A DNA stretch of 58,784 bases from Deltaproteobacteria bacterium (GTDB taxonomy: Bacteria > Desulfobacterota_D > UBA1144 > Nemesobacterales > UBA2774): contig JAJCZS010000007.1 of assembly GCA_029262275.1 (NCBI GenBank), positions 1-58,784 on the forward strand, read 5' to 3'. Under the pieces are notes generated by a model. It worked only from the letters and a program-made list of their open reading frames with translations. It had not been told where the DNA came from and did no database searches. Below are positions 13,356-35,635 of the stretch, in pieces (positions within the stretch are counted from its first letter, which is position 1; each line of letters opens with the position of its first letter). A program made the translations under genes and the position numbers.

Positions 13356-16292
13356 TCAACCCTCTTTTCTCACTACAAAGCTTTGTTTTGAAAGAAGGCC
13401 TTTAGAGTCTTTGGCAATCACAGTTATCAGATTAATATCATCTTCAAGAGTGAGGTCTATTGAAACAGGCACATTTGTTTTTGTAGAAGGAAGCAGCGCA
13501 ACCTTATCATCACCCAGGAATACAGAGATAAGCTCTATTCCGTCTTTATCCTCTATATCTCCATAAAGATTAATAACATCTGATTTTGTTGAGACCGGCA
13601 AATCTATAAGCTTAATAATTGGTGGAGCCTCAAAAGCTTCTTGAAAAAGAGGCTTAATAGTTTCGGAATTCTCTGAATCCTTCACACTGGCAATTTTATC
13701 TTTGTTAATCCATCCAGACATGCCCTCATTTAAATTTACCTTGATCCACCCATCTGTTTGGCCAGTCGAATTGAACTTGGTTCCTTCTTGCGATAGGGCA
13801 ATAATCGGGGCACTAGCAAATCCCCCGCCTCTTATTGGAGTATTTCCCTGAGTTACAGTTATATCCTCTTCTATAGCTTTATAGGCTGAAACATCAGCAC
13901 TATTAGGTATTGATACTTTACTAGTTATACCATCTCTGAATATCTCATCTACAATCTGGATTTCAAATTCAATTGGAGCGTCTGATTTTTTAACATTAAA
14001 GGTAAAGTTGGTTTCTTCTATTTGTTGTGGTGAAAGATTCTCTATCTCTGCTCTTCCTTTTTCCAAAAATATAGTGTCTCCAGAAAGATTCTTTAGGCTT
14101 AAAATTGTTTTCTCCGAAGCTCCTCCACCAATATTCTTTACTCTTAGTACAAGTGCAATTGTTTCGCCCGCCTCAGGTATTCCGTTTCCATTTCCGGATG
14201 ATCCAAACCGTCCATCATCAACTATTTCATAGTTAAATGCGTAGAGTGGTCTGGCAAGAGCGTCTATATTAAGGTTAAAGTCATAATCCGCAATTGTAGA
14301 TTTATGAGCATCTTGGAATTTAAGTGAAATTTTATCTTCTCTTTTTAGTGCCCATTTTGGTATTTCAATTTTTGTGCTCCAGACTTTTTTCTCGCCAGGA
14401 TTTAACTTTCCATATATAAGCTCTTTTCTATCTAGAACTAAATTCTCAGACTCGGTTGTTGCACTTAATCTGTATAGGGGGTCAGGTCCGGTGTTCTCTA
14501 CCTCTACTGTTATCTCAACTTCTTCCCCTGCTTTTGCTTGTGGGATTTGAGGAAGAATATTTACATTCAAAGACGGAGTAGATGAAGGGGCTTTCCCGAA
14601 AGACCAGTCTACTCCCAGTGTCTGCCACTGATTTACAATTTTCTTGTCTTGATCTTTTGTTATCTCGCTTATGTCTTTTTGAATTTGATCCAGAGCCTGT
14701 TGTCTAGAAGGGGCCTTTGAGGATAGGATGATATCCTTAGCTAGCGATACATAGAAGTCTTTTTCAATTTTCTCTCTTTTTTCTTTCTTTGTTAAAGCTT
14801 CTTCAGGAGTAGGTTCCTCTTCGTTATCATTTACCTCTATATCCTGAAGATAGGTTATAGAATATATAGGGTTTTCCCTATTATCTTGAGCTGCTTTGTC
14901 TGATTTCCCATTTAGCTTGTTTAACCTAGGTTCTAAATTTGAGTTAAAAATTATTGAATCCTCGGTAATTGTTGTGGGATGTAAAATAATGTCCGGAGTA
15001 ACGCCAACGTCCTGAATTGATATATCCCCAGGGGTTAAATACTGGGCAATAGTTAGTTTTAGGGCTGATCCATCGTTTAAATCAAATATTTGTTGCACAG
15101 ATCCCTTACCAAAAGTCCTTTCCCCTATTATTACTGCCCGCTCATTGTTCTTAAGAGCTCCTGCAACAATTTCTGATGCGCTTGCACTACCCGCATCCAC
15201 TAGTACAACTACATTTCCAGAGTATTGTTGGTCTTTGTCGTTTGCATGGTAACGCTTTTGGGAGTTACCTACTTTAGTTGTTACTATTACTCCATCAGTT
15301 AGGAACAGATCTGAAATCCTTTCTGCCTGGTCCAATAATCCTCCAGGATTTCCTCTAAGATCAAGAATTAGTCCTTTTGGATCATCTCCCCCGTTTTTCA
15401 GATTCTCAACAATACTATCTAAAGTGTTTTTCTGAAAATCCCTTATTCTTACATATCTTATCCCGTTATCCAGATCGAACGTTTCAACACTTTCAATCTT
15501 TATAGTATCGCGAGTAATTTTATATTCCTTAGGTTGAGCAAAGTTATCTCGGTCAATATGGATAGCAACTTGAGATCCCTTGGGGCCTCTTAATTTACTA
15601 ACAGCCTCTATTAGAGACATGTTTATGGTCGATTCATCTTCTATTTGTACGATCTTGTCGTTGGGTTTGATTCCCACACTGTGTGCAGGTGTTCCTTCGA
15701 TTGGAGATATTACTGTTAGCTCCCCGTCTCTGATTCCTATAACAATTCCTAGTCCCCCAAAACTTCCTTCCGTCTCAATCATGAATTCTTTATAAACCTG
15801 AGGCACGATGATTCCTGAATGTGCATCTAAAGTTTTTAGCATCTCATCGAGCACTGCATACTCTATTTCATCTATCTCATAATCTTTGGAATCTAATTTG
15901 GGTGTTACAAAAGTGAAAATTTCATTTAACTTATTTGATACATCATTTAGATCCTGTATGCCGCCCATGTCAAAAGTTTGTTTTTCATTAACTACCTGAA
16001 CCTCAACAACCGATCCTTCTTCACCTTTGGGAAAATCTACAAGGACTTCATCAACTATTCTTTCAAGTCGGCCCAATGCCTGTATAAACATGTTTTTTGG
16101 CTCTATAGCAGTTTTGTTCACATAGTATCGGTTTACATATTGCATTACGATATTTGTTATATTTAGATTCTGAGCTCGGGTTGTTGTTTCAAAGTTCCCT
16201 AGGCTAGGTGCGAAAAATAAAACGTAGGAAAGTGCAATAAGTACAGTTCCTGAAATTATTATTCTTTTAACTGTTGTCGAAAACCTTATCAA
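13356..16292 (-). CDS. S41 C-terminal processing peptidase with long C-terminal extension
   Basis: 978 residues, about twice the usual CtpA length. After an N-terminal signal or anchor helix (residues 8-28) comes a PDZ domain (about 170-250, GLGIVIG and GIKPNDKIVQI). The S41 core follows, with LRGNPGG, the catalytic Ser in GSASASE (S371) and the lysine in FGKGSV (K396), 25 residues apart as expected. The C-terminal half has two CARDB-like beta-sandwich modules (about 575-780), an SH3-like module ending GMSGWINKDKI and a last Ig-like module. The architecture resembles the MXAN_5808 family of myxobacteria. It probably trims periplasmic or envelope proteins. GGAG precedes the ATG. It heads the long minus-strand run. 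Confidence 0.93.
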   Translation of the reverse strand: MIRFSTTVKRIIISGTVLIALSYVLFFAPSLGNFETTTRAQNLNITNIVMQYVNRYYVNKTAIEPKNMFIQALGRLERIVDEVLVDFPKGEEGSVVEVQVVNEKQTFDMGGIQDLNDVSNKLNEIFTFVTPKLDSKDYEIDEIEYAVLDEMLKTLDAHSGIIVPQVYKEFMIETEGSFGGLGIVIGIRDGELTVISPIEGTPAHSVGIKPNDKIVQIEDESTINMSLIEAVSKLRGPKGSQVAIHIDRDNFAQPKEYKITRDTIKIESVETFDLDNGIRYVRIRDFQKNTLDSIVENLKNGGDDPKGLILDLRGNPGGLLDQAERISDLFLTDGVIVTTKVGNSQKRYHANDKDQQYSGNVVVLVDAGSASASEIVAGALKNNERAVIIGERTFGKGSVQQIFDLNDGSALKLTIAQYLTPGDISIQDVGVTPDIILHPTTITEDSIIFNSNLEPRLNKLNGKSDKAAQDNRENPIYSITYLQDIEVNDNEEEPTPEEALTKKEKREKIEKDFYVSLAKDIILSSKAPSRQQALDQIQKDISEITKDQDKKIVNQWQTLGVDWSFGKAPSSTPSLNVNILPQIPQAKAGEEVEITVEVENTGPDPLYRLSATTESENLVLDRKELIYGKLNPGEKKVWSTKIEIPKWALKREDKISLKFQDAHKSTIADYDFNLNIDALARPLYAFNYEIVDDGRFGSSGNGNGIPEAGETIALVLRVKNIGGGASEKTILSLKNLSGDTIFLEKGRAEIENLSPQQIEETNFTFNVKKSDAPIEFEIQIVDEIFRDGITSKVSIPNSADVSAYKAIEEDITVTQGNTPIRGGGFASAPIIALSQEGTKFNSTGQTDGWIKVNLNEGMSGWINKDKIASVKDSENSETIKPLFQEAFEAPPIIKLIDLPVSTKSDVINLYGDIEDKDGIELISVFLGDDKVALLPSTKTNVPVSIDLTLEDDINLITVIAKDSKGLLSKQSFVVRKEG

Positions 16293-17061: not shown

Positions 17062-17090
17062 TTGACAATGTTTTCTATTTATGATGTAAT
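17062..17090 (+). promoter_or_regulatory. Promoter P1 for exported-protein operon
   Basis: TTGACA at 17062-17067, a 17-bp spacer, then TGTAAT at 17085-17090. The -35 is perfect and the spacing ideal, giving a start near 17097. Confidence 0.65.
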
Positions 17091-17119: not shown

Positions 17120-17233
17120 ATGTCATATGTCCAGTTGGTTCTCGGATTTACAAGAGAAAAGGGCTTGACAACTCCCCTAAACTATGTTGTAATTCTGAGC
17201 AGTTTAGGATTTAACGGGAGATTTGTTTTTTGA
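17120..17233 (+). CDS. Possible 37-residue leader or small protein
   Basis: An ATG at 17120 stands 9 bp after a perfect GGAGG (17106-17110), just downstream of promoter P1, and the frame runs 37 codons to a TGA at 17231-17233. The peptide (MSYVQLVLGFTREKGL... FVF) has a hydrophobic middle and no recognisable family. Promoter P2 lies inside the frame, so only P1 transcripts would carry it. It may be a leader peptide, a small protein or a chance frame after a strong ribosome site. Confidence 0.3.
   Translation: MSYVQLVLGFTREKGLTTPLNYVVILSSLGFNGRFVF
17165..17193 (+). promoter_or_regulatory. Promoter P2 for exported-protein operon
   Basis: TTGACA at 17165-17170, a 17-bp spacer, then TGTAAT at 17188-17193. 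Both boxes and the spacing equal those of the promoter 103 bp upstream, while the spacers differ. An inverted repeat flanks the -10 box. Confidence 0.65.
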
Positions 17234-17298: not shown

Positions 17299-17367
17299 AA
17301 TGAAAGGAGGATGTATATGATCAAAGGAAACTTAATGAACAATACCAAAACAAGGAGGAAAGGTTCA

Positions 17368-18390
17368 ATGCTACAGGATAGTTTATCCAAAATAAAGTAC
17401 TTATTAGTGCTTGCTTTTCTTTTAGTTTTACCAATGCAGGCAATGGCTGGTATGGGCGTAGTCCCCGTTATTGACCAGACCGACACAGGAGTAGAAAGAC
17501 TTGTTTCGTTTTTTGATACGAGAGGAAGGGATACCTTTGTACAGGTTACCAACACCTCATCAGAAAAGGTCAACATCCATGTCCAAGTATACGACGTTGC
17601 TTCAATCTTCACAGAGTGTGAAGAATGTAACTTCGACGATATGCTAACTGGTCATGATACACATGTTTATGATGTAGAAAACATGATGACTAACGCTGTT
17701 CCAGGTATGGCATCTGAAGCAGTATGTACCGAGTTAGGACCAGATACATACGGTTTTGTTGTTATATCTCTATTACCACAGCTTAGCGAGCAGTCTGCTG
17801 GTTTAATCGGAATGTTCAGAATTATTGACGAGTCCGGTTACGAGTACAGAGCTAATTCAGCTGGTAGCGAAGAGAATTTTATTGCTGATACAAGTGTAGA
17901 TCAGATTGTTAACTTTAGTGATGCTAATGGTCACAACTTGTCTGACTTAGTAGGTATTACCTATGTTGATCTAGGCCCTGGTGATGTTCACGCACACCCT
18001 GGTATAGCAACAACATTTGGTAGCCCGCAGGATCAGATTCTTATCTTAGACCAAGACGAGGATCCAATCTCTTGCAGCCCAACCACATTTGCATGTGCTG
18101 TTGGCGCTCTTGACAAGGGTATAGATAATGCGCTTCCTAACAGTAAAGGTCAGCTCAACAGAGTATGTGCTAGCAGCATTCTTAACTCAAACATTGCTGG
18201 CTTTTTAGATCTGCCGTTTAACGGTTTTACATGTTCAGCAGCATCTGGTGTTGGTAATCCAGATGGAAGTTGTTCATCAGAACCATACTTTGTCGGTTTC
18301 ATTGGATTAAACAATGGAGACGGCACAGGATCTATGGATTCCTGGTGGGAAAGAGGAAGACATAACGTCGACAGAAATCTAGAAAACTAA
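17368..18390 (+). CDS. Exported protein, paralogue of the next gene; function unknown
   Basis: 340 residues from the ATG at 17368, which lies 9 bp after AGGAGG (17353-17358) and opens directly into a normal signal peptide cut near QAMAG. The frame also extends to in-frame ATGs at 17317 and 17311 after a second strong site, AAAGGAGG. The mature protein has a module RDTFVQVTNTSSEKVNIHVQV, TGHDTHVYDV and a C-terminal module DQDEDPISC, FACAVGALDKGIDNAL. Both modules recur in the next gene. Paired cysteines suggest disulfides. There is no membrane anchor at the C-terminus, so it is probably secreted or attached through its partner. Two promoters and strong ribosome sites suggest high expression. 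I do not recognise the family. Confidence 0.8.
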   Translation: MLQDSLSKIKYLLVLAFLLVLPMQAMAGMGVVPVIDQTDTGVERLVSFFDTRGRDTFVQVTNTSSEKVNIHVQVYDVASIFTECEECNFDDMLTGHDTHVYDVENMMTNAVPGMASEAVCTELGPDTYGFVVISLLPQLSEQSAGLIGMFRIIDESGYEYRANSAGSEENFIADTSVDQIVNFSDANGHNLSDLVGITYVDLGPGDVHAHPGIATTFGSPQDQILILDQDEDPISCSPTTFACAVGALDKGIDNALPNSKGQLNRVCASSILNSNIAGFLDLPFNGFTCSAASGVGNPDGSCSSEPYFVGFIGLNNGDGTGSMDSWWERGRHNVDRNLEN

Positions 18391-18452
18391 TTAACGGTGA
18401 AAACAAATATGACTTATGAACGCATAATAAAATTTGAAAGGAGGATAAATAA

Positions 18453-20417
18453 ATGATAAGCAAGTTAAGATTTTCATTAATAGCTATTGTAATGCTTGTC
18501 CTTTTAGGATTTGGTTTTCAGAACCAAGCTAAAGGGCAGGTAGGGCTAGACGGCTTGTTCTGCCCTGCTGTCCCAAATACTACGGGTTGGCTTGAGACCG
18601 AGATAGTTGGATCAGGTCTTGTAATTCCTGATTTCAGAGGCGGCCTTCTCGGTACCGTAGAAAATTCAGGTGCTGACGCCGTTGGTGGTCTAGACTGGCA
18701 GCACGTAGACAACACTTTTTCAAACAATCTCCCACCTGGGGCTATAGGAAGTATTACCCCTACTAACGCGACTGGATCACAGCTCGTTACATGGTGGACA
18801 CAAAAAGACGGAAGAAACACATACCTTCAGGTTACAAATGCTGACTCTGAGCCAATTACGGTTCATGTTCGCATACACAATGAAGCATGTGCTGAGATCA
18901 GAGACTTCTGTGATACATACACAGGGTATGATACACATGAGTACAACCTTGGTGACCTAGTTTCCAACGGTGGAGCAGTTATTCCTGACAACAACCTACA
19001 GGGCGTTGAAGGTTGGCTTGTTGTTACAGCTGTTGCTCCTGGTACTTGTGCAAGTCCTGATGAGCAGGCTTATGATCATAACTATCTAGCTGGTAATCTA
19101 ATCATTCATGATTCAGATGACTATCTATATGGTGTTAACACATATGCAAGACAGGCTATCTGCGAAAATGTAGACTCAATGATTACAGTGAACAGAGTAG
19201 CTAACGGAAGTTTCTTGGATAATTTAACATCCTGGAATACTCCACAGCAAACTGTAGCTCTTACTGATGGTTTTGCAGTTAACCCTCAGGTGTTTGCCCC
19301 ACCTAATAATCAAGGTAGCGGCAATATGGCTTTCGTGATTGCTAATGCTGCTAACGCTCAAACTTATGGTGGAGGAAGTACACCTGCTCTTAATACTATC
19401 ACGGACTTTGTTGATCTTGGAGGAGCTGATGGTAGTGTAGCGCTTCTTGAGAGTTCTATAATCACAGTGGGTCCTAATGATAGTCAAGTGCTTACCTACA
19501 ACCTTCAGCATTATGCTCAGAACACTGTTTGTTCAAACTGGACAGCAGTTGTGTTAGTTAATCAGGCGGGTGGCGGTAGTATCGTAGATGCAAACTGCTA
19601 TCAGTCAGATGATACTAATACTATCGGTAATACCTCAAATCTAGTTGGCAACACAAACTGTCAGCAGCTTGCTGTTGATGATTCCATGCCATCATTTGGT
19701 CCTAATGGTTGGTTTGGCCGTTCAAACTTCTTGACCGGACAAACTTTAAACACAGGCGGCCAGGGTACTTTTCGCGTTCAGGTTGTAGCTGGACAGAACG
19801 TTGCTGGTGGAGTTGGCGCTTGTATTACTTCTGATGAGCCAGTTGGAGCTTTAGTTAACGGCTTTAACCTTAATGGACAAGATACAATTACAGCATCATG
19901 TGATGGAAGATTGAATGGTGACTTCAATGCTTTACTTGATCGCGTTGACCCAACCGTTCTTTCAGGACAGTTCAACATCCTTCCTGGCAATGTACAGGCA
20001 GGAGCAGATGCTGTTCTTATCAACTTTGCTGATAACTATGGACCTCCATACAGACCAGTTGCTGCTAACTCTGTATACTTCATAAGCATTTTTGATGAAG
20101 ATGAGCAGGATGTTAGTTGCGGAGACTTAACTGCATGTTTCGCAAGGTTAGGTATAGATGATGCTTTAATTCCGAGTGAGCAGTTCTCACCGGCAACACC
20201 TACACCAACACCTACAGTAACTCCAACTATTACACCTACACCTACAGTGCCTCCTACACTAGCTCCTACACCTACACCTAATAATGGTGGAAGTGGTAGT
20301 TGTGCTATAGCTGGAAGCCCAGTTCAACTCGGTACAGCATTGGCTAACGTACTTATACCTCTAGTACCTGTAGCCTTCGCATTCGGAGTTAGAGCTGTAA
20401 GAAGAAGAAAGAAATAA
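18453..20417 (+). CDS. Surface protein with Thr/Pro linker and Cys-type C-terminal sorting tail
   Basis: 654 residues. Signal peptide: MISKLRFSLIAIVMLVLLGF, cut near KGQ. Residues about 110-240 repeat the module of the upstream protein (GRNTYLQVTN, TVHVRI, TGYDTHEYN). A beta-rich insert resembling a choice-of-anchor sandwich follows from about 250 to 490. FDEDEQDVSC and TACFARLGIDDAL then match the partner's C-terminal module. Next come about 30 residues of TPTP repeats, a GGSGSC motif with C617, a hydrophobic helix and RAVRRRKK at the end. This tripartite tail is typical of sorted, processed surface proteins such as MYXO-CTERM, and the linker suits O-glycosylation. GAAAGGAGG precedes the ATG. 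The function is unknown. Confidence 0.85.
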   Translation: MISKLRFSLIAIVMLVLLGFGFQNQAKGQVGLDGLFCPAVPNTTGWLETEIVGSGLVIPDFRGGLLGTVENSGADAVGGLDWQHVDNTFSNNLPPGAIGSITPTNATGSQLVTWWTQKDGRNTYLQVTNADSEPITVHVRIHNEACAEIRDFCDTYTGYDTHEYNLGDLVSNGGAVIPDNNLQGVEGWLVVTAVAPGTCASPDEQAYDHNYLAGNLIIHDSDDYLYGVNTYARQAICENVDSMITVNRVANGSFLDNLTSWNTPQQTVALTDGFAVNPQVFAPPNNQGSGNMAFVIANAANAQTYGGGSTPALNTITDFVDLGGADGSVALLESSIITVGPNDSQVLTYNLQHYAQNTVCSNWTAVVLVNQAGGGSIVDANCYQSDDTNTIGNTSNLVGNTNCQQLAVDDSMPSFGPNGWFGRSNFLTGQTLNTGGQGTFRVQVVAGQNVAGGVGACITSDEPVGALVNGFNLNGQDTITASCDGRLNGDFNALLDRVDPTVLSGQFNILPGNVQAGADAVLINFADNYGPPYRPVAANSVYFISIFDEDEQDVSCGDLTACFARLGIDDALIPSEQFSPATPTPTPTVTPTITPTPTVPPTLAPTPTPNNGGSGSCAIAGSPVQLGTALANVLIPLVPVAFAFGVRAVRRRKK

Positions 20418-20440: not shown

Positions 20441-20475
20441 GGTGGCAAGCTTAGGCTTGCCACCTCTTATTCTTT
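20441..20475 (+). terminator. First of two tandem terminators
   Basis: GGTGGCAAGC (20441-20450) pairs perfectly with GCTTGCCACC (20455-20464) around a TTAG loop, and a T-rich run follows. It lies 24 bp after the surface-protein stop. Confidence 0.85.
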
Positions 20476-20512
20476 CTTTAGATTAAGAGAATAAAAGTTA
20501 GTTAAAAAATAG

Positions 20513-20552
20513 ACCGAGAGAGTTAGTAAAATGACTCTCTCGGTTTTTTTTA
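20513..20552 (+). terminator. Second tandem terminator
   Basis: ACCGAGAGAGT (20513-20523) pairs with ACTCTCTCGGT (20534-20544), followed by eight T. A back-up terminator fits a strongly transcribed operon and shields thiI from read-through. Confidence 0.92.
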
Positions 20553-21815: not shown

Positions 21816-22337
21816 TTACTTCTTAGGCGGTTCTGAATAATCCATAAAACCTTTTGTCTGAGGTGGTCCACTATAGGAAAGTTTTTTCCAGATAGCAGAA
21901 TCAGCGTAGTACAATCTAAAAACTAGATACCTGAATTGGTTATAGAATATACGGTTTTTTCTTTGTATGTGGCTGATTAAAGCATTAATTGTTTCTTTGT
22001 CTTTGAGTTGGTAAAAGGGTAATTCAAATTTTGATACGGAAAGTGAATTTATATTCCACAATCCTGCGTCAAAGATAGTAGCTGCAGCCCTGTCACTATT
22101 CACATAGTCCATCACCTTACCCTTCATATTTATCTCATTTGATCCAGGTAAAAGTGCTTCCGCTAATGCAGCCATAACCTTTTGAGTCTTGTCATTAAAA
22201 ACTATATAGCCTTTTTGAATTTCTATACCTTTTTCATAGTTCTTGGCAAGTACAGTTGTTGGTATAGAGGATAATACATTTCCTCCGATGAATCCTACTG
22301 TTAAGGTTTTAATAAATTTTCGTCTGGAGTTTATCAT
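21816..22337 (-). CDS. Gluconate 2-dehydrogenase subunit 3-like Tat-exported protein
   Basis: 173 residues. The N-terminus SRRKFIKTLTVGFIGG is a twin-arginine signal, so the protein is exported folded. The body (MAALAEALLPGSNE, helical, ending FRLYYADSAIWKKLSYSGPP) fits the Gluconate_2-dh3 family, small subunits that travel with GMC-type dehydrogenases. The likely partner is the GMC oxidoreductase at 23272, encoded divergently just beyond the parvulin gene. It would stabilise or help export the flavoprotein. The gap to the upstream parvulin gene is 25 bp, so the two form an operon. Confidence 0.82.
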   Translation of the reverse strand: MINSRRKFIKTLTVGFIGGNVLSSIPTTVLAKNYEKGIEIQKGYIVFNDKTQKVMAALAEALLPGSNEINMKGKVMDYVNSDRAAATIFDAGLWNINSLSVSKFELPFYQLKDKETINALISHIQRKNRIFYNQFRYLVFRLYYADSAIWKKLSYSGPPQTKGFMDYSEPPKK

Positions 22338-22362
22338 ATTTAATTACACCCAAGCCACTAAT

Positions 22363-23169
22363 TTAATCTATTATTTCTATTTCCATACCATTTTCTTTAG
22401 CAACTGTGTTTGCATAGTTCTCAAACATCTGCCCTTTCTCTACTGATTCTAGAACGTGTCTGATAGATTTCTTAGAAGAATTTAAGGGTATGTCTTTTAC
22501 ATCCACAATTTTGAGGACACTAAATGTACCATTTGGCTTTTGAATTACTTCTGAAACAGAACCGACTTCTCTATTATCAAACTTTTTTGCCATCATTTTA
22601 TTAAATCCTATGTCCGTAACTGTAACTGCTATATCGGTATAGCCATTAGCAATCTCTTGTAGATCCTCTCCCTTTTCAACTTTTTCTTTTATCTCTTTTC
22701 CTAAATTGACATCAGGAAAAGAAACTTCATGTATGCGTACATAAGTGTATCTATCTTTATTGAGGTCATAATATTTTTGGATATCTTCATCTGATATTTT
22801 CTTTGTTGGCTCAGCATTTTCCAAAATCTTTGCTTTTGTGCCTTCAATAACCAAATTTCTCTCAAAATTTCTTACTCTACTTCTATATTCTTTATCAATC
22901 CCTTGTTTGATCCCTGCTTGATAAATTATTTCCTCAGTTATTACAAATTCGAGGTTTCTCCCGTTTAGGTCATCCTCGTAAATCGGTGTCCCATTTACAC
23001 GTGCTAATACCTTGCCCGTTCTTTCTGGTTCGGGTTCAGCGGTGGAATTGTCGTTATTCTGAGTCTGTGACTGAGTACTTTCTTGCTCAGTCGTGGTGTT
23101 TGAATCGGATTGATTACATCCTATTAGTGCCACAAAAATGAATAATAAATACAATTTACGCAAAGTCAT
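22363..23169 (-). CDS. Parvulin-like lipoprotein foldase
   Basis: 268 residues. The signal ends in lipobox LIGC with C18, followed by a Ser/Thr/Gln/Asn-rich linker (about 19-50). A SurA-like segment follows (VLARVNGTPIYEDDL), then a divergent parvulin domain (EVSFPDVN, EVGSVSEVIQKPNGTFSVLKIV). Key parvulin catalytic residues are hard to place, so chaperone function may dominate. Its position between the Tat-exported subunit gene and the GMC gene suggests a folding helper for that periplasmic oxidoreductase. Confidence 0.82.
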   Translation of the reverse strand: MTLRKLYLLFIFVALIGCNQSDSNTTTEQESTQSQTQNNDNSTAEPEPERTGKVLARVNGTPIYEDDLNGRNLEFVITEEIIYQAGIKQGIDKEYRSRVRNFERNLVIEGTKAKILENAEPTKKISDEDIQKYYDLNKDRYTYVRIHEVSFPDVNLGKEIKEKVEKGEDLQEIANGYTDIAVTVTDIGFNKMMAKKFDNREVGSVSEVIQKPNGTFSVLKIVDVKDIPLNSSKKSIRHVLESVEKGQMFENYANTVAKENGMEIEIID

Positions 23170-23226
23170 AGTATTGCTCCCTAAATATTAATATTATCGC
23201 ACGAAACCAAATTTATAACTTATAAA

Positions 23227-23255
23227 TTGACATAAAGCAATAGGTTATTTATATT
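23227..23255 (+). promoter_or_regulatory. Strong sigma-70-type promoter for the GMC gene
   Basis: TTGACA (23227-23232), a 17-bp spacer and TATATT (23250-23255). The start would be near 23262, only about ten bases before the ATG at 23272, and no Shine-Dalgarno sequence lies between. Confidence 0.75.
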
Positions 23256-23271
23256 ATGCACCACTAATAAT

Positions 23272-24921
23272 ATGCCTCCTAAGAAAGAAAAATATGATTG
23301 TGTTGTAATAGGTTCAGGCCCCGGCGGTGCGCCTTTTGCCTGGAAGCTTGCTTCAGAAGGAATGAATGTACTAATACTTGAAGCAGGGCCTCGTTACGAC
23401 CCTCTTAAATCTTATGCCCTAGACCAGCAAGACTGGGAAACAAAGGGTTTTCCTTATAAAAAGAAAATTAAATATAGTTTTGGTAAACAACAAAGGCTAG
23501 ATCCAAGCTATGCTCAGCTTAGGTCATGGAATAAGGCAAATGGTAAGTTAAACCGTACCAGAAAGAGACATTATCACCAATATCAACAGGTCTCAGGAGT
23601 AGGCGGTACAACGCTTCATTATCAGGGGGAGGCGCACAGATTAAACGAAAATGCGTTTCGTATGAAAACCCTCTATGGAGAGGCAGTGGATTGGCCTATT
23701 GATTATAAGACCTTAGAGCCATACTATAGCGAGGTTGAAAAGATTGTTGGAGTTGCCGGTCCTGACAAGGTTCCTTCCCATCCCCGTAGTGGGCCATTCC
23801 CGCTTAAGCCACATAAGTTAAGTTATGCAAGCCAATTAATTGAGAAGGCATGTAAAAAACAGGGCATAGAGCTTGATGCTAATCCGGTTGCTATATTGTC
23901 CCATCTCTACAGAGATGCTCCTCCCTGTAATTATTGTAACGGGTGTGTTTGGGGCTGTCCTAGAAAGGATAAAGGTAGTGTTGATGTAACTTTTATTCCG
24001 ATTGCAGAAGATACGGGTAATTGTGAAATACTAACTTATGCCTTTGCCTCTAGGATTGAAGTGGAAAACAAACTGGGGAAAAAGAAAGTAACAGGTGTTT
24101 CATATTTCGATAGAGGAGGCAAGGAGCATTTTGTTAAGAGTGATTATGTTGCTGTCGCCTGCGGAGCTGTAGAAACTCCCAGAATATTGTTAAATTCAGA
24201 TATTAATCAAAATGACCTGGTTGGCAAGAATTTTATGGAGACCACATTCTATGAAGTTATGGCTTTTCATCCTGATAGAGTGGATTCTTATAGAGGAATA
24301 CCCTTTGATAGTATTATCTGGGACTGGAATACCCCTAATCCAGACAGAGGTTTTCCAGGTGGCCTAAGACTTTCACCAACAGTAGGGAGTGCTATAGGCC
24401 CTCTTAATTATGCACTTAGATACTTTAAGGGATGGGGCGATGACGTAGTCAAAGGAATGGAAGAGTGGTTTGGACATGCTATGGGAATGGCAGGTATTGC
24501 GGAATTTTTCCCAAACGAGAATACTTTTGTTGCTCTAGATCCTAAGTTTAAAGATGATTACGGCTTACCTGTTGCCCAAATACAATCATTTCTAGGTGAA
24601 GCTGAACTTCAAAGCTTAGAATTTATGGAAAAAACTTCAAAGGCTATCTTAAAGGCAAGCGGTGCAGACGATATTGTAGAAACAGCTTCTTCGTATGATT
24701 ACTTTTCAGCGACACATGTATACGGAACTTGCCGTATGGGTAATGATCCTGAATTATCAGTAGTTGACTCTTCACTTAGGTTTCATGGCATTTCTAATCT
24801 CTTAGTAACTGATGCCAGTGTCTTTCCTACTTCAGGCGGAGGGGAGTCACCATCTCTTACTATTGAAGCTCTTAGTTTAAGAGCTGCTGATTTACTTTTA
24901 AAAGATCTCAAGAAAGGTTAA
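23272..24921 (+). CDS. GMC-family flavin oxidoreductase
   Basis: 549 residues. FAD Rossmann motif GSGPGGAPFAWKLA (about 13-26) with the acidic ELEAG-like residue in LILEAGPR. VSGVGGTTLHYQGEAHR is the GMC signature. CNYCNGCVWGCP (C219, C222, C225, C229) is a C-x2-C-x2-C-x3-C set known from alcohol-oxidase-type GMC proteins. The C-terminal catalytic region is THVYGTCRMG and TDASVFPTSGGGESP. It oxidises an alcohol or sugar, but the substrate is unknown. No export signal of its own is seen, so it may be carried out with the Tat-bearing small subunit encoded divergently. Followed after 9 bp by the FG-GAP protein gene. Confidence 0.93.
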   Translation: MPPKKEKYDCVVIGSGPGGAPFAWKLASEGMNVLILEAGPRYDPLKSYALDQQDWETKGFPYKKKIKYSFGKQQRLDPSYAQLRSWNKANGKLNRTRKRHYHQYQQVSGVGGTTLHYQGEAHRLNENAFRMKTLYGEAVDWPIDYKTLEPYYSEVEKIVGVAGPDKVPSHPRSGPFPLKPHKLSYASQLIEKACKKQGIELDANPVAILSHLYRDAPPCNYCNGCVWGCPRKDKGSVDVTFIPIAEDTGNCEILTYAFASRIEVENKLGKKKVTGVSYFDRGGKEHFVKSDYVAVACGAVETPRILLNSDINQNDLVGKNFMETTFYEVMAFHPDRVDSYRGIPFDSIIWDWNTPNPDRGFPGGLRLSPTVGSAIGPLNYALRYFKGWGDDVVKGMEEWFGHAMGMAGIAEFFPNENTFVALDPKFKDDYGLPVAQIQSFLGEAELQSLEFMEKTSKAILKASGADDIVETASSYDYFSATHVYGTCRMGNDPELSVVDSSLRFHGISNLLVTDASVFPTSGGGESPSLTIEALSLRAADLLLKDLKKG

Positions 24922-24930
24922 GTTTCTTAG

Positions 24931-26481
24931 ATGCGGCTAGCATTATATCTCCTAATATTGGTTTCTATATTTTTTGTCCCATATTCATTAAACAATTCCT
25001 ATGCTCAGGACCAAGATCTTCCTAACTTCTCAAACGTACAAAATCAAACAGGTATACCCTTCATAGGTAAAATTGGTCAGGCAGCCACATGGGGAGACTA
25101 TAATGTAGATGGCTGGCTTGATATATTCCTATCTAATAGTGACCGAAACCCCAGACGAAGTAGAAGAAGGCAAGCAAACAGAGACTCTACAAGTGTTCAA
25201 AAAGAGATTCAAAGATCATTTCTTTTCACTAATGAAAAGGGTCAATTTAAAGACTCTTCGGATTTTTTAGGTATTCCCAATTCTCGCTACGGCACTGCTA
25301 CCTGGGCAGATTATAACAATGATGGTTTCCCGGATTTACTCTTAGGTACAAAAAGAGCGGGAAAACCTCTACAGCTTTATAAGAATGTAGATGGAATTTA
25401 TTTTGTGAATATGAATGAGCAAGCGGGAATAACAAAAGAACGCTCAACAGTCGCTCACGGTATTTGGGCAGATTACGATAATGATGGAAATGTAGATTTT
25501 TTCCAAGCCGGCAAGGGGCTCTCATATCTCTACAGAAATAACGGAGATGGAACTTTTGAAGAGGTATCGGAAAGGGTAGGCATTGATGGGAGATTTGTAT
25601 CCAATTCAGCCCTGTGGTTCGATTCAAATAATGATGGCTACCAGGATCTCTTTCTTTTAAATAAGGAAATGAATGTAATGTATCTTAATCTCGGTGACGG
25701 AACTTTCATGGATGTTACCCAAAGCTCCGGTCTTGGAGGACGTCAGGGGTGGGGGACAACATCTGCGTGTTCAGGTGATTATAATGGAGACGGGTATTTT
25801 GATTTATATATAACCAATATTGGTAGAGCTAGTGGCAATGCGTTATATAAAAATAACGGAGATGGCACATTTACAAATATAACTCTCGAGACTAATACTG
25901 ATGATGTTGGAGACGGGAGAACTTGTGCCTGGATTGATTTTGATGCCGATGGTAGAGTCGATCTCTTTTCTACAAACCATTTGCATCCTAATAGGTTATA
26001 TAGAAACTTGGGTAACGACGTTTTTGTAGATGTTGCATCCTCAGTTGGAATAGATAAACCAATAGATGTATTTGCCGCAACCTGGGGAGATTATAATTTA
26101 GATGGATTTATTGACGTTTTCTTAAACGGTCACATAGGTACGGGGTTAATGAAGAACAGCGGCAACTCGAATAACTCTATTACACTAAATTTAGTTGGCA
26201 ATGGACTTACGAGCAATAGCTCTGCGATTGGCGCCAGAGTTGAAGTCGTTACAGGCAAAGATAGGCAAGTAAGGGAAGTCTCTGGTGGAAGGGGATGCTG
26301 CGAGCAAGACATGCTTCCAGTTTATTTTGGTGTAGGCAAAAATGATGTTGTAGACCTTAATGTAAAATGGCCAAGTGGAAATCTTTGTTCGTTTAATGAC
26401 CTCTCTGTTGATGAGATAAACCATTTTACTATTCATGAAGTAAAGTGTGATATAATTCCCTCTAATCAAGCTGCAGAATAA
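24931..26481 (+). CDS. FG-GAP repeat protein with ASPIC/UnbV C-terminus (CRTAC1-like)
   Basis: 516 residues with a signal peptide (LALYLLILVSIFF, cut near YAQD). At least seven blades carry Ca-binding loops of the form D-x-N-x-D-G, for example DYNVDGWLDIF, DYNNDGFPDLL, DYDNDGNVDFF and DYNGDGYFDLY, making a beta-propeller. The C-terminal region SAIGARVEVVTG to VDLNVKWPSG is the ASPIC/UnbV domain. It is periplasmic or extracellular, and its role is not established. It is probably in an operon with the GMC gene. Confidence 0.92.
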   Translation: MRLALYLLILVSIFFVPYSLNNSYAQDQDLPNFSNVQNQTGIPFIGKIGQAATWGDYNVDGWLDIFLSNSDRNPRRSRRRQANRDSTSVQKEIQRSFLFTNEKGQFKDSSDFLGIPNSRYGTATWADYNNDGFPDLLLGTKRAGKPLQLYKNVDGIYFVNMNEQAGITKERSTVAHGIWADYDNDGNVDFFQAGKGLSYLYRNNGDGTFEEVSERVGIDGRFVSNSALWFDSNNDGYQDLFLLNKEMNVMYLNLGDGTFMDVTQSSGLGGRQGWGTTSACSGDYNGDGYFDLYITNIGRASGNALYKNNGDGTFTNITLETNTDDVGDGRTCAWIDFDADGRVDLFSTNHLHPNRLYRNLGNDVFVDVASSVGIDKPIDVFAATWGDYNLDGFIDVFLNGHIGTGLMKNSGNSNNSITLNLVGNGLTSNSSAIGARVEVVTGKDRQVREVSGGRGCCEQDMLPVYFGVGKNDVVDLNVKWPSGNLCSFNDLSVDEINHFTIHEVKCDIIPSNQAAE

Positions 26482-28517: not shown

Positions 28518-29831
28518 ATGTCTCTAAGAAACCTACTACTATCATACAAAGTTGAGTTATTACTGTTTCTAATAATTCTATTTAGTCTCGGGGTCAAATT
28601 TCACGATCTTGAGAACCCTCAGAGCTATTATTTTGATGAGGTTTACTTTGCTTTTACTGCTCAGGAAATGGCAAAGGGCAATAAACTTGCCTGGCAAGTT
28701 CCTGGGGCAGATGTAGAGGTTCCAAAGGATATGGCATACGAGTGGACACACCCGCCATTAGGAAAAGAAATCAGTGCCCTTGGAATACTGATTTTTGGTG
28801 ATAATACATTTGGATGGCGTTTCTTCCAGGCTTTCTTTGGAGTATTAGGAACAGTATTTATCTTTCTCCTTGCAAGGAACTTGTTTAACAAAAGTGTTGG
28901 ATTGTTAGCTGCACTGCTTTACTCTCTTGAATCATTCATTTTTGTGTTAAGCCGCATCACTATGGTTGATATCTTTATGGTTAACTTTATCTTGTTAGCC
29001 TCGCTTTTTGTTGTAAAATACGCAAAATCCCGAAAAACGATATATCTACTTCTGACAGGAGCTTTCTGCGGTGCCGCTATTTCGATTAAATGGAGCGGAG
29101 TGTATATTGCGGAGTTCCTAGCAGGAGTGTCATTCTTTCTGATCTATTACAATGAAGTCTATAGCTCGGACTCAGAAGGGAGCTCTTATATTAATGACGT
29201 TTTGAAAATTTTTCCAAGGATGATATTAGCTTTTGTTTTAATTCCTCTATTAGTATATATCGCAACTTACATACCGTTTTTCTACTTTGGTAATTCAGTA
29301 GGTGAATTCATTAATCTGCAGCAATCCATGTTTGGATATCATGGGGGCGTTACTGATACTCATCCCTATTTCTCTGAGTGGTGGAAATGGCCCCTGTTAT
29401 TAAAACCTGTATATATGCAATTTGAAGATTTGGGCGGACAGCATTCTCACATATACGCATTGGGCAATCCATTTATATGGTGGACGGGATGTTTGTTCGT
29501 GATAATGGGAGTCGTGCAGGTAATACGCAAAGAATCACCGGCGCTTATTTTTGTTGTGGTAAGTTTTTTTGCATATTGGCTTCCTTGGGCACTCTCGCCT
29601 AGAAAAATAACCTTTTTATATCACTTCCTGCCATCTCTTTTGTTTATGCTTATTATTAGCGCATATTTTCTAAACAGCTTTTGGAATAGATCAAGATATG
29701 GCAAGTCGATTGTGGTAATCTATATTCTTATTGCTGCAGGAGTTTTTTACTATTTCTATCCAATTCTCTCAGGAGCCCCTCTTGCACCAGGTACTATAGA
29801 TAGCTATTACTGGATGGAATCTTGGAGATAA
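28518..29831 (+). CDS. PMT/GT39-family protein O-mannosyltransferase-like protein
   Basis: 437 residues, multi-pass. The first periplasmic loop has YYFDEVYF with the D40-E41 pair, the catalytic acidic site of PMT enzymes. EWTHPPLGKEI follows, then GWRFFQAFFGVLG, all typical of the family. SRITMVDIFMV and GAAISIKWSG also match. PMT enzymes transfer mannose from a polyprenyl phosphate to Ser/Thr of exported proteins. The Thr/Pro linker of the surface protein encoded at 18453 is a plausible local substrate. No MIR domain is present, as in bacterial forms. Confidence 0.87.
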   Translation: MSLRNLLLSYKVELLLFLIILFSLGVKFHDLENPQSYYFDEVYFAFTAQEMAKGNKLAWQVPGADVEVPKDMAYEWTHPPLGKEISALGILIFGDNTFGWRFFQAFFGVLGTVFIFLLARNLFNKSVGLLAALLYSLESFIFVLSRITMVDIFMVNFILLASLFVVKYAKSRKTIYLLLTGAFCGAAISIKWSGVYIAEFLAGVSFFLIYYNEVYSSDSEGSSYINDVLKIFPRMILAFVLIPLLVYIATYIPFFYFGNSVGEFINLQQSMFGYHGGVTDTHPYFSEWWKWPLLLKPVYMQFEDLGGQHSHIYALGNPFIWWTGCLFVIMGVVQVIRKESPALIFVVVSFFAYWLPWALSPRKITFLYHFLPSLLFMLIISAYFLNSFWNRSRYGKSIVVIYILIAAGVFYYFYPILSGAPLAPGTIDSYYWMESWR

Positions 29832-35026: not shown

Positions 35027-35635
35027 ATGAAAGAAAAATCCTGGCTAATTAAGAATGCAGTTCCACTAGCAGTTTATGTATTTATAATACTGGTAATTTT
35101 TTTGTCTCAGCGCTTTCTTCCACCTAATTACGTAATATCCATCGCAGCTATGCTGATGTTTTTCCCCATTTTGCTAAAAGCTGACGGCAAGTTCTTCAGA
35201 TCGGATCTAAGAGGAGTCCTTATAGGATTGGGAGTCTCTGCTGTTCTATTATCAATATATACCCTTGTTATCTTTTTATATGGTTTATATGTCGATAAAT
35301 CATTAGTATGGAATGCACTACCCGTATCTTTCATCCTGACCCAACTCCTAATGGTTGCTTTGCCAGAGGAAGTGTTCTTCAGGGGCTATTTGCAAACTAA
35401 AATAGGAAACAACATAAAGGGAATAATTATTGTGAGTTTGTTATTCGCTGTCGGTCATTTTATTACCTTGTGTTTAGGAGGCGGGCATAATGTATCTATA
35501 TGCTCCCAAGCCATACTTACCTTCTTCCCGTCATTAGTAATGGGCTATCTTTATTTTACTACTAAGAGTCTCTGGGCCAGTATTATCTTTCACTTCTTCG
35601 CCAACATAGTTCATATCGCAATAGGTTTATCTTGA
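35027..35635 (+). CDS. CPBP-family intramembrane glutamic protease
   Basis: 202 residues, about six to eight membrane helices. Motif 1 is PEEVFFRG with E114, E115 and R119; motif 2 is the His in FAVGHFIT (H144); motif 3 is FHFFANI with H189 and N193. This is the CPBP/Rce1 glutamic-protease set. Myxosortases and related enzymes of this superfamily cleave Cys-containing C-terminal sorting tails. A protein with such a tail is encoded at 18453, so this is a candidate processing enzyme. CPBP proteins also serve in bacteriocin immunity and other roles, so the link is inference. A weak promoter (TTGTTA, 17 bp, TTAAAT) ends ten bases before the ATG. Confidence 0.87.
   Translation: MKEKSWLIKNAVPLAVYVFIILVIFLSQRFLPPNYVISIAAMLMFFPILLKADGKFFRSDLRGVLIGLGVSAVLLSIYTLVIFLYGLYVDKSLVWNALPVSFILTQLLMVALPEEVFFRGYLQTKIGNNIKGIIIVSLLFAVGHFITLCLGGGHNVSICSQAILTFFPSLVMGYLYFTTKSLWASIIFHFFANIVHIAIGLS

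Follow-up and report, generated by a model that had tools for sequence, protein, structure and literature searches.

A permuted, anchored partner and a candidate sorting route in a two-gene exported-protein cassette of Candidatus Dadabacteria

A two-gene cassette of Candidatus Dadabacteria encodes two exported proteins, A and B, that are best read as a lineage-specific surface pair in which labour is split between a free partner (A) and an anchored one (B). We tentatively favour, at somewhat less than an even chance, the more specific reading that A and B form a glycan-binding or matrix pair at the cell surface, with B lipid-anchored through a route like that of MYXO-CTERM proteins and A held or released. 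A tag, its carrier proteins and a possible processing protease, found in one syntenic block, would make up a first candidate surface-sorting pathway for an uncultured phylum and, if true, would bring the myxosortase principle to a phylum outside those in which it is known. The cassette is also a clear natural example of two operon partners related by circular permutation, which plausibly serves to attach one of them to the membrane. Because the family is in none of the searched libraries, A and B proteins carry no functional annotation there.

Two exported proteins built from shared modules

The cassette lies in a window of 58,784 nucleotides (the whole stretch of DNA that was analysed) from a Dadabacteria MAG of 2.48 Mb in 47 contigs. 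Its coding features are:

17311..18390, + strand: gene A, exported protein without an anchor (359 aa, shortened to 340 aa if translation begins at 17368)
17485..17862, + strand: A N-module, predicted eight-stranded beta sandwich with an ASRT/TM1070-like fold and a conserved Asn closing strand 2
17887..18372, + strand: A C-module, second predicted beta sandwich, with final strands FVGFIGLNNGDGTGSMDSWW
18453..20417, + strand: gene B, exported, with stalk and sorting-like tail (654 aa)
18552..18698, + strand: N-terminal part of B, permuted homologue of A's C-terminal strands
18771..19160, + strand: B N-module, homologue of the A N-module
19161..19910, + strand: B beta-rich insert, fast evolving, not in the B of family f4
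19911..20168, + strand: B C-module, without the terminal strands found in A
20181..20285, + strand: B stalk, Pro/Thr-rich (PTPTPTVTPTITPTPTVPPTLAPTPTP)
20286..20414, + strand: B C-terminal sorting-like signal (GGSGSC-AIAG, hydrophobic helix, RRRKK)

The spacing from A to the start of B is 62 bases. Translation of A could begin at 17311 or, in the same frame, at 17368, and a strong Shine–Dalgarno sequence precedes either start; a preliminary description of this DNA, made from the letters alone, had the open reading frames right and began A at 17368, and the upstream start is new here. The motifs by which it had proposed two shared modules are in place: RDTFVQVTN, HVQV and TGHDTHVY in the N-module of A correspond to RNTYLQVTN, HVRI and TGYDTHEY in B, and DQDEDPISC, AC and GIDNAL in the C-module of A correspond to DEDEQDVSC, AC and GIDDAL in B. 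Profile–profile alignment of A with B gave E = 4.5e-47 for the N-modules and E = 4e-20 for the C-modules. By these alignments A and B are exported paralogues, the homology of their modules being beyond doubt and not a matter of chance. Both N-termini are a basic-hydrophobic stretch that is helical in the predicted structures, in keeping with the signal peptides proposed earlier, through which A and B would leave the cytoplasm.

The extra beta-rich insert attributed to B is seen in its predicted model, but it is confined to the family f1 B proteins at this locus, the f4 B lacking it. Its identity is 25–55% between species of one genus, against 53–82% for the flanking modules, as expected of an exposed variable part; in the favoured reading the insert would be the exposed, diversifying part of B. 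Sequence searches of Pfam, NCBIfam and the PDB with A, B and their alignments found no family for the modules, in agreement with the earlier statement that neither was recognised. The products look like envelope or surface proteins, as had been supposed, and the hydrophobic helix with RRRKK at the end of B corresponds to the anchor-like tail that had been assigned to the second gene. The preliminary description was therefore sound in its picture of an unrecognised family with surface-like products and an anchored second gene; it missed the sharing of the tail, the permutation and the myxosortase-like protease.

Circular permutation of B

The C-module of B ends after GIDDAL, and the last strands of A (C...GFLDLPF...FVGFIGLNNGDGTGSMDSWW) are absent there. 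B instead has an N-terminal segment, FCPAVPNTTGWLETEIVGSG..FRGGLLGTVENSGADAVGGLDW, whose profile was aligned by hhalign to columns 91–136 of the 161 columns of the A C-module with a probability of 86–87% and E = 4–5e-6. Ten reversed or column-shuffled profiles, used as controls, reached at best 6% and E = 6e-3, and the segment profile did not match the A N-module. Single-sequence scores are weak; their best-scoring location was N-terminal in 11 of 14 B proteins and was the C-terminal segment in 13 of 13 A-type proteins above 3 bits. As judged from these profiles, B is a circular permutant of A in which the C-terminal strands of A have been relocated to the N-terminus. Since the members in genomes G016 and G029 keep the A-like order, the permutation is assigned to the lineage that leads to the B proteins of f1 and f4.

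The permutation would free the C-terminus of B for a stalk and an anchor. A more far-reaching version, which we consider unlikely in its entirety, describes a phylum-specific surface duo in which permutation of one partner freed its C-terminus for the stalk and a new class of Cys tag with its own CPBP protease, and in which each partner completes the other (strand exchange being one way), so that A can be displayed at the cell surface or released there. In the favoured reading of a glycan-binding or matrix pair, A, having no anchor, would be retained through binding to B or be released.

Distribution, pairing and phylogeny

A phylum-wide search found the family in 18 of 58 Dadabacteria genomes. 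There were no carriers in family f8, with its roughly 1-Mb genomes, and G029 was the only one in family f6. A scan of named genomes with a single peptide pattern returned MAGs labelled 'Candidatus Dadabacteria' or 'Deltaproteobacteria' together with Bacterium HR37, and no copies were present in 17 genomes of one other phylum, a set uninformative alone. Within the genomes searched, the A/B family is found solely in Candidatus Dadabacteria. The scan of named genomes also returned L174, a 3.3-kb contig with an A-type gene; it is assigned to a Hyphomicrobiales MAG that belongs to the same OFTM series, and it is probably mis-binned Dadabacteria DNA. Phage origin of A and B was rejected, as a phage search gave no match to the family and a viral fold library gave no convincing one.

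Every f1 or f4 genome in which the locus is assembled has A and B together, and the genes run CTP protease–A–B–thiI within the genus of the source, within its family and in one f4 genome. The protease adjoining A–B in the syntenic loci (13356–16292 in the window) is a divergent S41 enzyme of the C-terminal-processing type with PDZ, CARDB and SH3-like parts. An untailed first gene followed by an anchored second gene occurs at 13 f1/f4 loci, syntenic and paralogous, and in six tandem pairs of G016. The 13-locus count accepts as anchor either the tail or a lipobox with RTX repeats (the paralogous pairs of G000, G004 and G006), and one second gene among the 13 has no visible anchor. In the paralogous pair of the source genome (G000:C3), the second protein has a lipobox and RTX-like repeats and no tail. 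Paralogous B genes at L040:13472-14962 and L044:3659-5161 encode an N-terminal lipobox, a glycine run and C-terminal RTX-type calcium-binding repeats; by these motifs, the product of the second gene would be retained in another way.

A phylogeny of 74 members separates the A clade from the B clade (99% SH-aLRT each), and the internal branching of the two is congruent. Genome G021 has about 34 A-type genes (clade 99%) with no B and no tail, a lineage-specific expansion, perhaps of antigen- or receptor-like proteins; the copies (L054–L056 and L065–L082) are diverged, many are in tandem, and the genome is a 2.1-Mb MAG (JAJCZQ, OFTM105). G029 has a single, unpaired B-type gene. In G016, on the B side of the tree, tailed and untailed genes are intermixed and one tailed/untailed pair are sisters (100%), so the pair layout was either made again there or the pairs were homogenised by gene conversion. 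Members in this genome have Cys-rich repeats in place of the Pro/Thr stalk; at L057, L083, L085 and L087, tandem untailed/tailed pairs have Myxo_Cys_RPT or acidic double-disulfide repeats before the tail.

The preliminary description had treated the two genes as a unit, and homologues do recur as pairs in constant order, untailed then anchored, at the 13 loci and in the six G016 pairs; pairing is common but not universal, given the lack of B in G021 and the lone B of G029. These two genomes, the first of which implies that A can work without B, are what would be expected if A and B were uncoupled, that is, an old tandem duplication kept by synteny in which A would be secreted as a free binder while B would act on its own as an anchored protein. 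Such independence seems improbable to us in view of the f1/f4 co-occurrence, the constant order and the apparent independent re-creation of an untailed/tailed pair in G016, for which gene conversion is the alternative. A seemingly natural A–B fusion in G015 (L048) was rejected, as the joined ORF crosses stretches of N.

A sorting-like tail and a candidate processing protease

The tail of B (GGSGSC-AIAG, helix and RRRKK) also ends an S8 protease of the source genome (66% identity) and is present on further exported proteins of that genome (L130, L132, L133 and L062). Phylum-wide, about 40 distinct proteins end in this tail, six of them in the source genome; many carriers have a signal peptide, and they include S8 proteases and choice-of-anchor proteins. 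In relatives, the tail profile gave 14 hits in G016 and 13 in G029, and 15 ORFs with a Cys-containing C-terminus were read out from 20 stretches fetched for tail matches. When the S8 protease is aligned with B-type proteins from three families, nine columns of the tail are invariant, among them the Cys after the Gly/Ser run and those of ANxLxxLxP. No NCBIfam CTERM model scored a Dadabacteria tail above its cutoff: the B tail had no hit, and other tails reached 10.8–12.6 bits with JDVT-CTERM (cutoff 27) and 8.5 bits with Synerg-CTERM (cutoff 22.5).

From its architecture, the tail of B appears to be a C-terminal sorting-like signal with an invariant Cys. It could instead be a mere transmembrane anchor with a cytoplasmic basic stop and no processed signal, for which a hydrophobic helix with RRRKK would suffice and with which the lack of a CTERM match agrees. 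The nine invariant columns, the presence of the same tail on unrelated exported proteins and the last 14 codons of B (20373–20414), which unusually show no nucleotide change, and hence no synonymous change, against two other species, make a plain anchor an unlikely explanation.

Two genes of the syntenic block bear on how B may be processed and modified:

28518..29831, + strand: PMT-type protein O-mannosyltransferase, which may modify the Pro/Thr stalk
35027..35635, + strand: CPBP (Rce1-like) intramembrane protease, nearest profiles myxosortases, candidate tail processor

The CPBP protein has EEVFFRG, H and HxxxN motifs, and its best NCBIfam matches are MrtP, MrtC and Mrt_core (68.5 bits, cutoff 100), below every myxosortase cutoff. 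Together with five relatives, for which Mrt profiles are likewise the best NCBIfam matches, it scored 56–72 bits with Mrt_core (cutoff 100); another CPBP protein of G016 gave no hit with this model. The gene lies 16–20 kb from A–B (about 17 kb in the window) in G000, G002, G007, G009, G010, G034 and G018, a placement thus conserved in six other genomes of two families. Presence of a CPBP orthologue showed no clear association with that of the tail (about 16 of 20 tail-bearing genomes vs 16 of 25 others, by hand count). Glycosyltransferases, including the PMT enzyme, sit between A–B and the CPBP gene, and a different contig carries a type II secretion operon (GspD, 502 bits, cutoff 351, with adjoining GspE/F/G-like ORFs).

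In the MYXO-CTERM system, lipidation of the Cys has been proposed, the protease that processes the tag has been demonstrated to be MrtX, and the proteins are exported through the type II secretion system (PMC11980579). The Dadabacteria arrangement shares with it the tripartite tail (invariant Cys motif, helix and basic end), signal peptides on the carriers, a CPBP glutamic protease homologous to Mrt proteins, type II secretion and, in G016 members, Myxo_Cys_RPT stalk repeats. It differs in its tail, C-[AS]-I-A...ANxLIPLxP, which is unscored by the NCBIfam CTERM models, in a protease under all Mrt cutoffs and in its host, Dadabacteria not being Myxococcota; it is known here from sequence. JDVT-CTERM and Synerg-CTERM are also short, Cys-containing, CPBP-processed C-terminal tags, whereas Dadabacteria tails score 8.5–12.6 bits against their cutoffs of 22.5–27. 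By analogy, a MYXO-CTERM-like sorting route for B is probable. B would first be held in the inner membrane by its C-terminal helix and then be cut at the invariant Cys of GGSGSC-AIAG by a CPBP glutamic intramembrane protease, probably the one encoded at 35027–35635. It would be lipid-modified on the tail Cys and passed outside by type II secretion, as in the MYXO-CTERM pathway, and the Pro/Thr stalk, which the PMT enzyme of the block may O-mannosylate, would raise the globular part of B off the membrane.

Predicted fold and the question of a ligand

The predicted model of A is good (pLDDT 84, pTM 0.82) and that of B poorer (pLDDT 66). Residues 44–163 of A form eight strands in the model, which matched TM1070/ASRT (PDB 1nc7) among solved structures with probability 1.00, a TM score of 0.72 of the target and an rmsd of 4.2; this was the sole compact single-domain match near the top of the search, and the B model finds the same domain (probability 1.00, TM 0.69). 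N62 of A (in QVTN) ends strand 54–62, matching the near-absolute Asn that closes strand 2 of the eight-stranded ASRT sandwich, and in the first strand, which starts with Trp in ASRT, B has WW and A has FF. ASRT-type domains (ASRT/ASRAH, PF07100) are predicted sugar binders, and secreted domain-pair versions, a further likeness to A/B, are known in actinobacteria (PMC2739507).

A and B differ from these domains in their two-gene layout and permutation and in the lack of significant sequence similarity. Comparison of ASRT with the A/B profiles (hhalign) gave E = 0.12–0.2, the same as shuffled controls, for which ASRT membership by sequence was rejected; family-wide ASRT scores were slightly above those of reversed sequences only (p = 0.007, rows not independent). 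The ASRT ligand motif SHExxC is absent from A and B, and the ligand residues are unconserved. The N-module is thus predicted to fold like the TM1070/ASRT sandwich, with non-significant sequence support. As the fold match comes without profile kinship or SHExxC, glycan binding is a reasoned guess; the modules would most likely bind glycan, of a self matrix or a foreign source.

Transcription and translation signals

Promoter- and terminator-like elements flank the pair:

17062..17090, + strand: promoter-like site 1, TTGACA-N14-TGA-TGTAAT, identical in G004, absent in G005
17165..17193, + strand: promoter-like site 2, TTGACA-N14-TGT-TGTAAT, conserved in G004, -10 part also in G005
20441..20464, + strand: terminator-like hairpin 1, symmetrical, 3' of B
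20511..20546, + strand: terminator-like hairpin 2, with T run, 3' of B

The preliminary description had proposed two strong promoters, strong ribosome sites and tandem terminators. The last two agree with the hairpins after B and with the Shine–Dalgarno sequences at both starts of A. As to promoters, the window has exactly two TTGACA-N17-TGTAAT sites, both with an extended -10 TGN and both kept in the same-genus species G004, but a generic sigma-70 scan of the region counted 15 sites where 15.6 were expected, and so no excess. The rest of the 2.48-Mb genome has no match to TTGACA-N14-TGN-TGTAAT, a descriptive result because the pattern was taken from the two sites.

In the first 40 codons of A, synonymous changes affect 1 of 36 (G004) and 1 of 32 (G005) identical residues, compared with about 40% further on, which shows nucleotide-level constraint on the initiation region; this region could possibly act as a leader or in translational control. 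The stretch 17311–17430 of the window contains two in-frame Shine–Dalgarno/start pairs (17311–17320 and 17368), the codons of RRKGSM being the second Shine–Dalgarno sequence. A structured RNA in the 5' leader was rejected, as no Rfam family matched at its gathering score and folding was no better than that of shuffles. For codon adaptation to ribosomal genes, B ranks 4th and A 13th among the 42 ORFs of the window, a codon bias that lends only modest support to high expression and leaves the abundance supposed in the preliminary description a conjecture.

Strong expression, to which the two conserved promoters and the nearly invariant initiation region point, would also suit a structural matrix or surface coat, in which A and B, together or each with itself, assemble a coat or biofilm scaffold with B as membrane-linked base and A as subunit and no specific ligand. 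The many tandem copies in G021 and G016 are consistent with this, as are the secreted tandem beta sandwiches shared with RbmA, the Vibrio cholerae biofilm scaffold (4kkp), which had the best Foldseek E-value for A (6e-5). However, RbmA superposes poorly (TM 0.17/0.22, rmsd 19.7), for which its two-FnIII arrangement was rejected; its sequence is unrelated, and it has no anchored partner. With codon usage giving only modest support for high expression, we regard a coat without a ligand as a rather unlikely competitor of the glycan-binding or matrix pair.

Beyond the hairpins, at 21816–26481 of the window, a GMC oxidoreductase gene opposite a gluconate-2-dehydrogenase-subunit-3-like gene is followed by a gene for an FG-GAP/UnbV-ASPIC protein, and these genes are conserved with the block.
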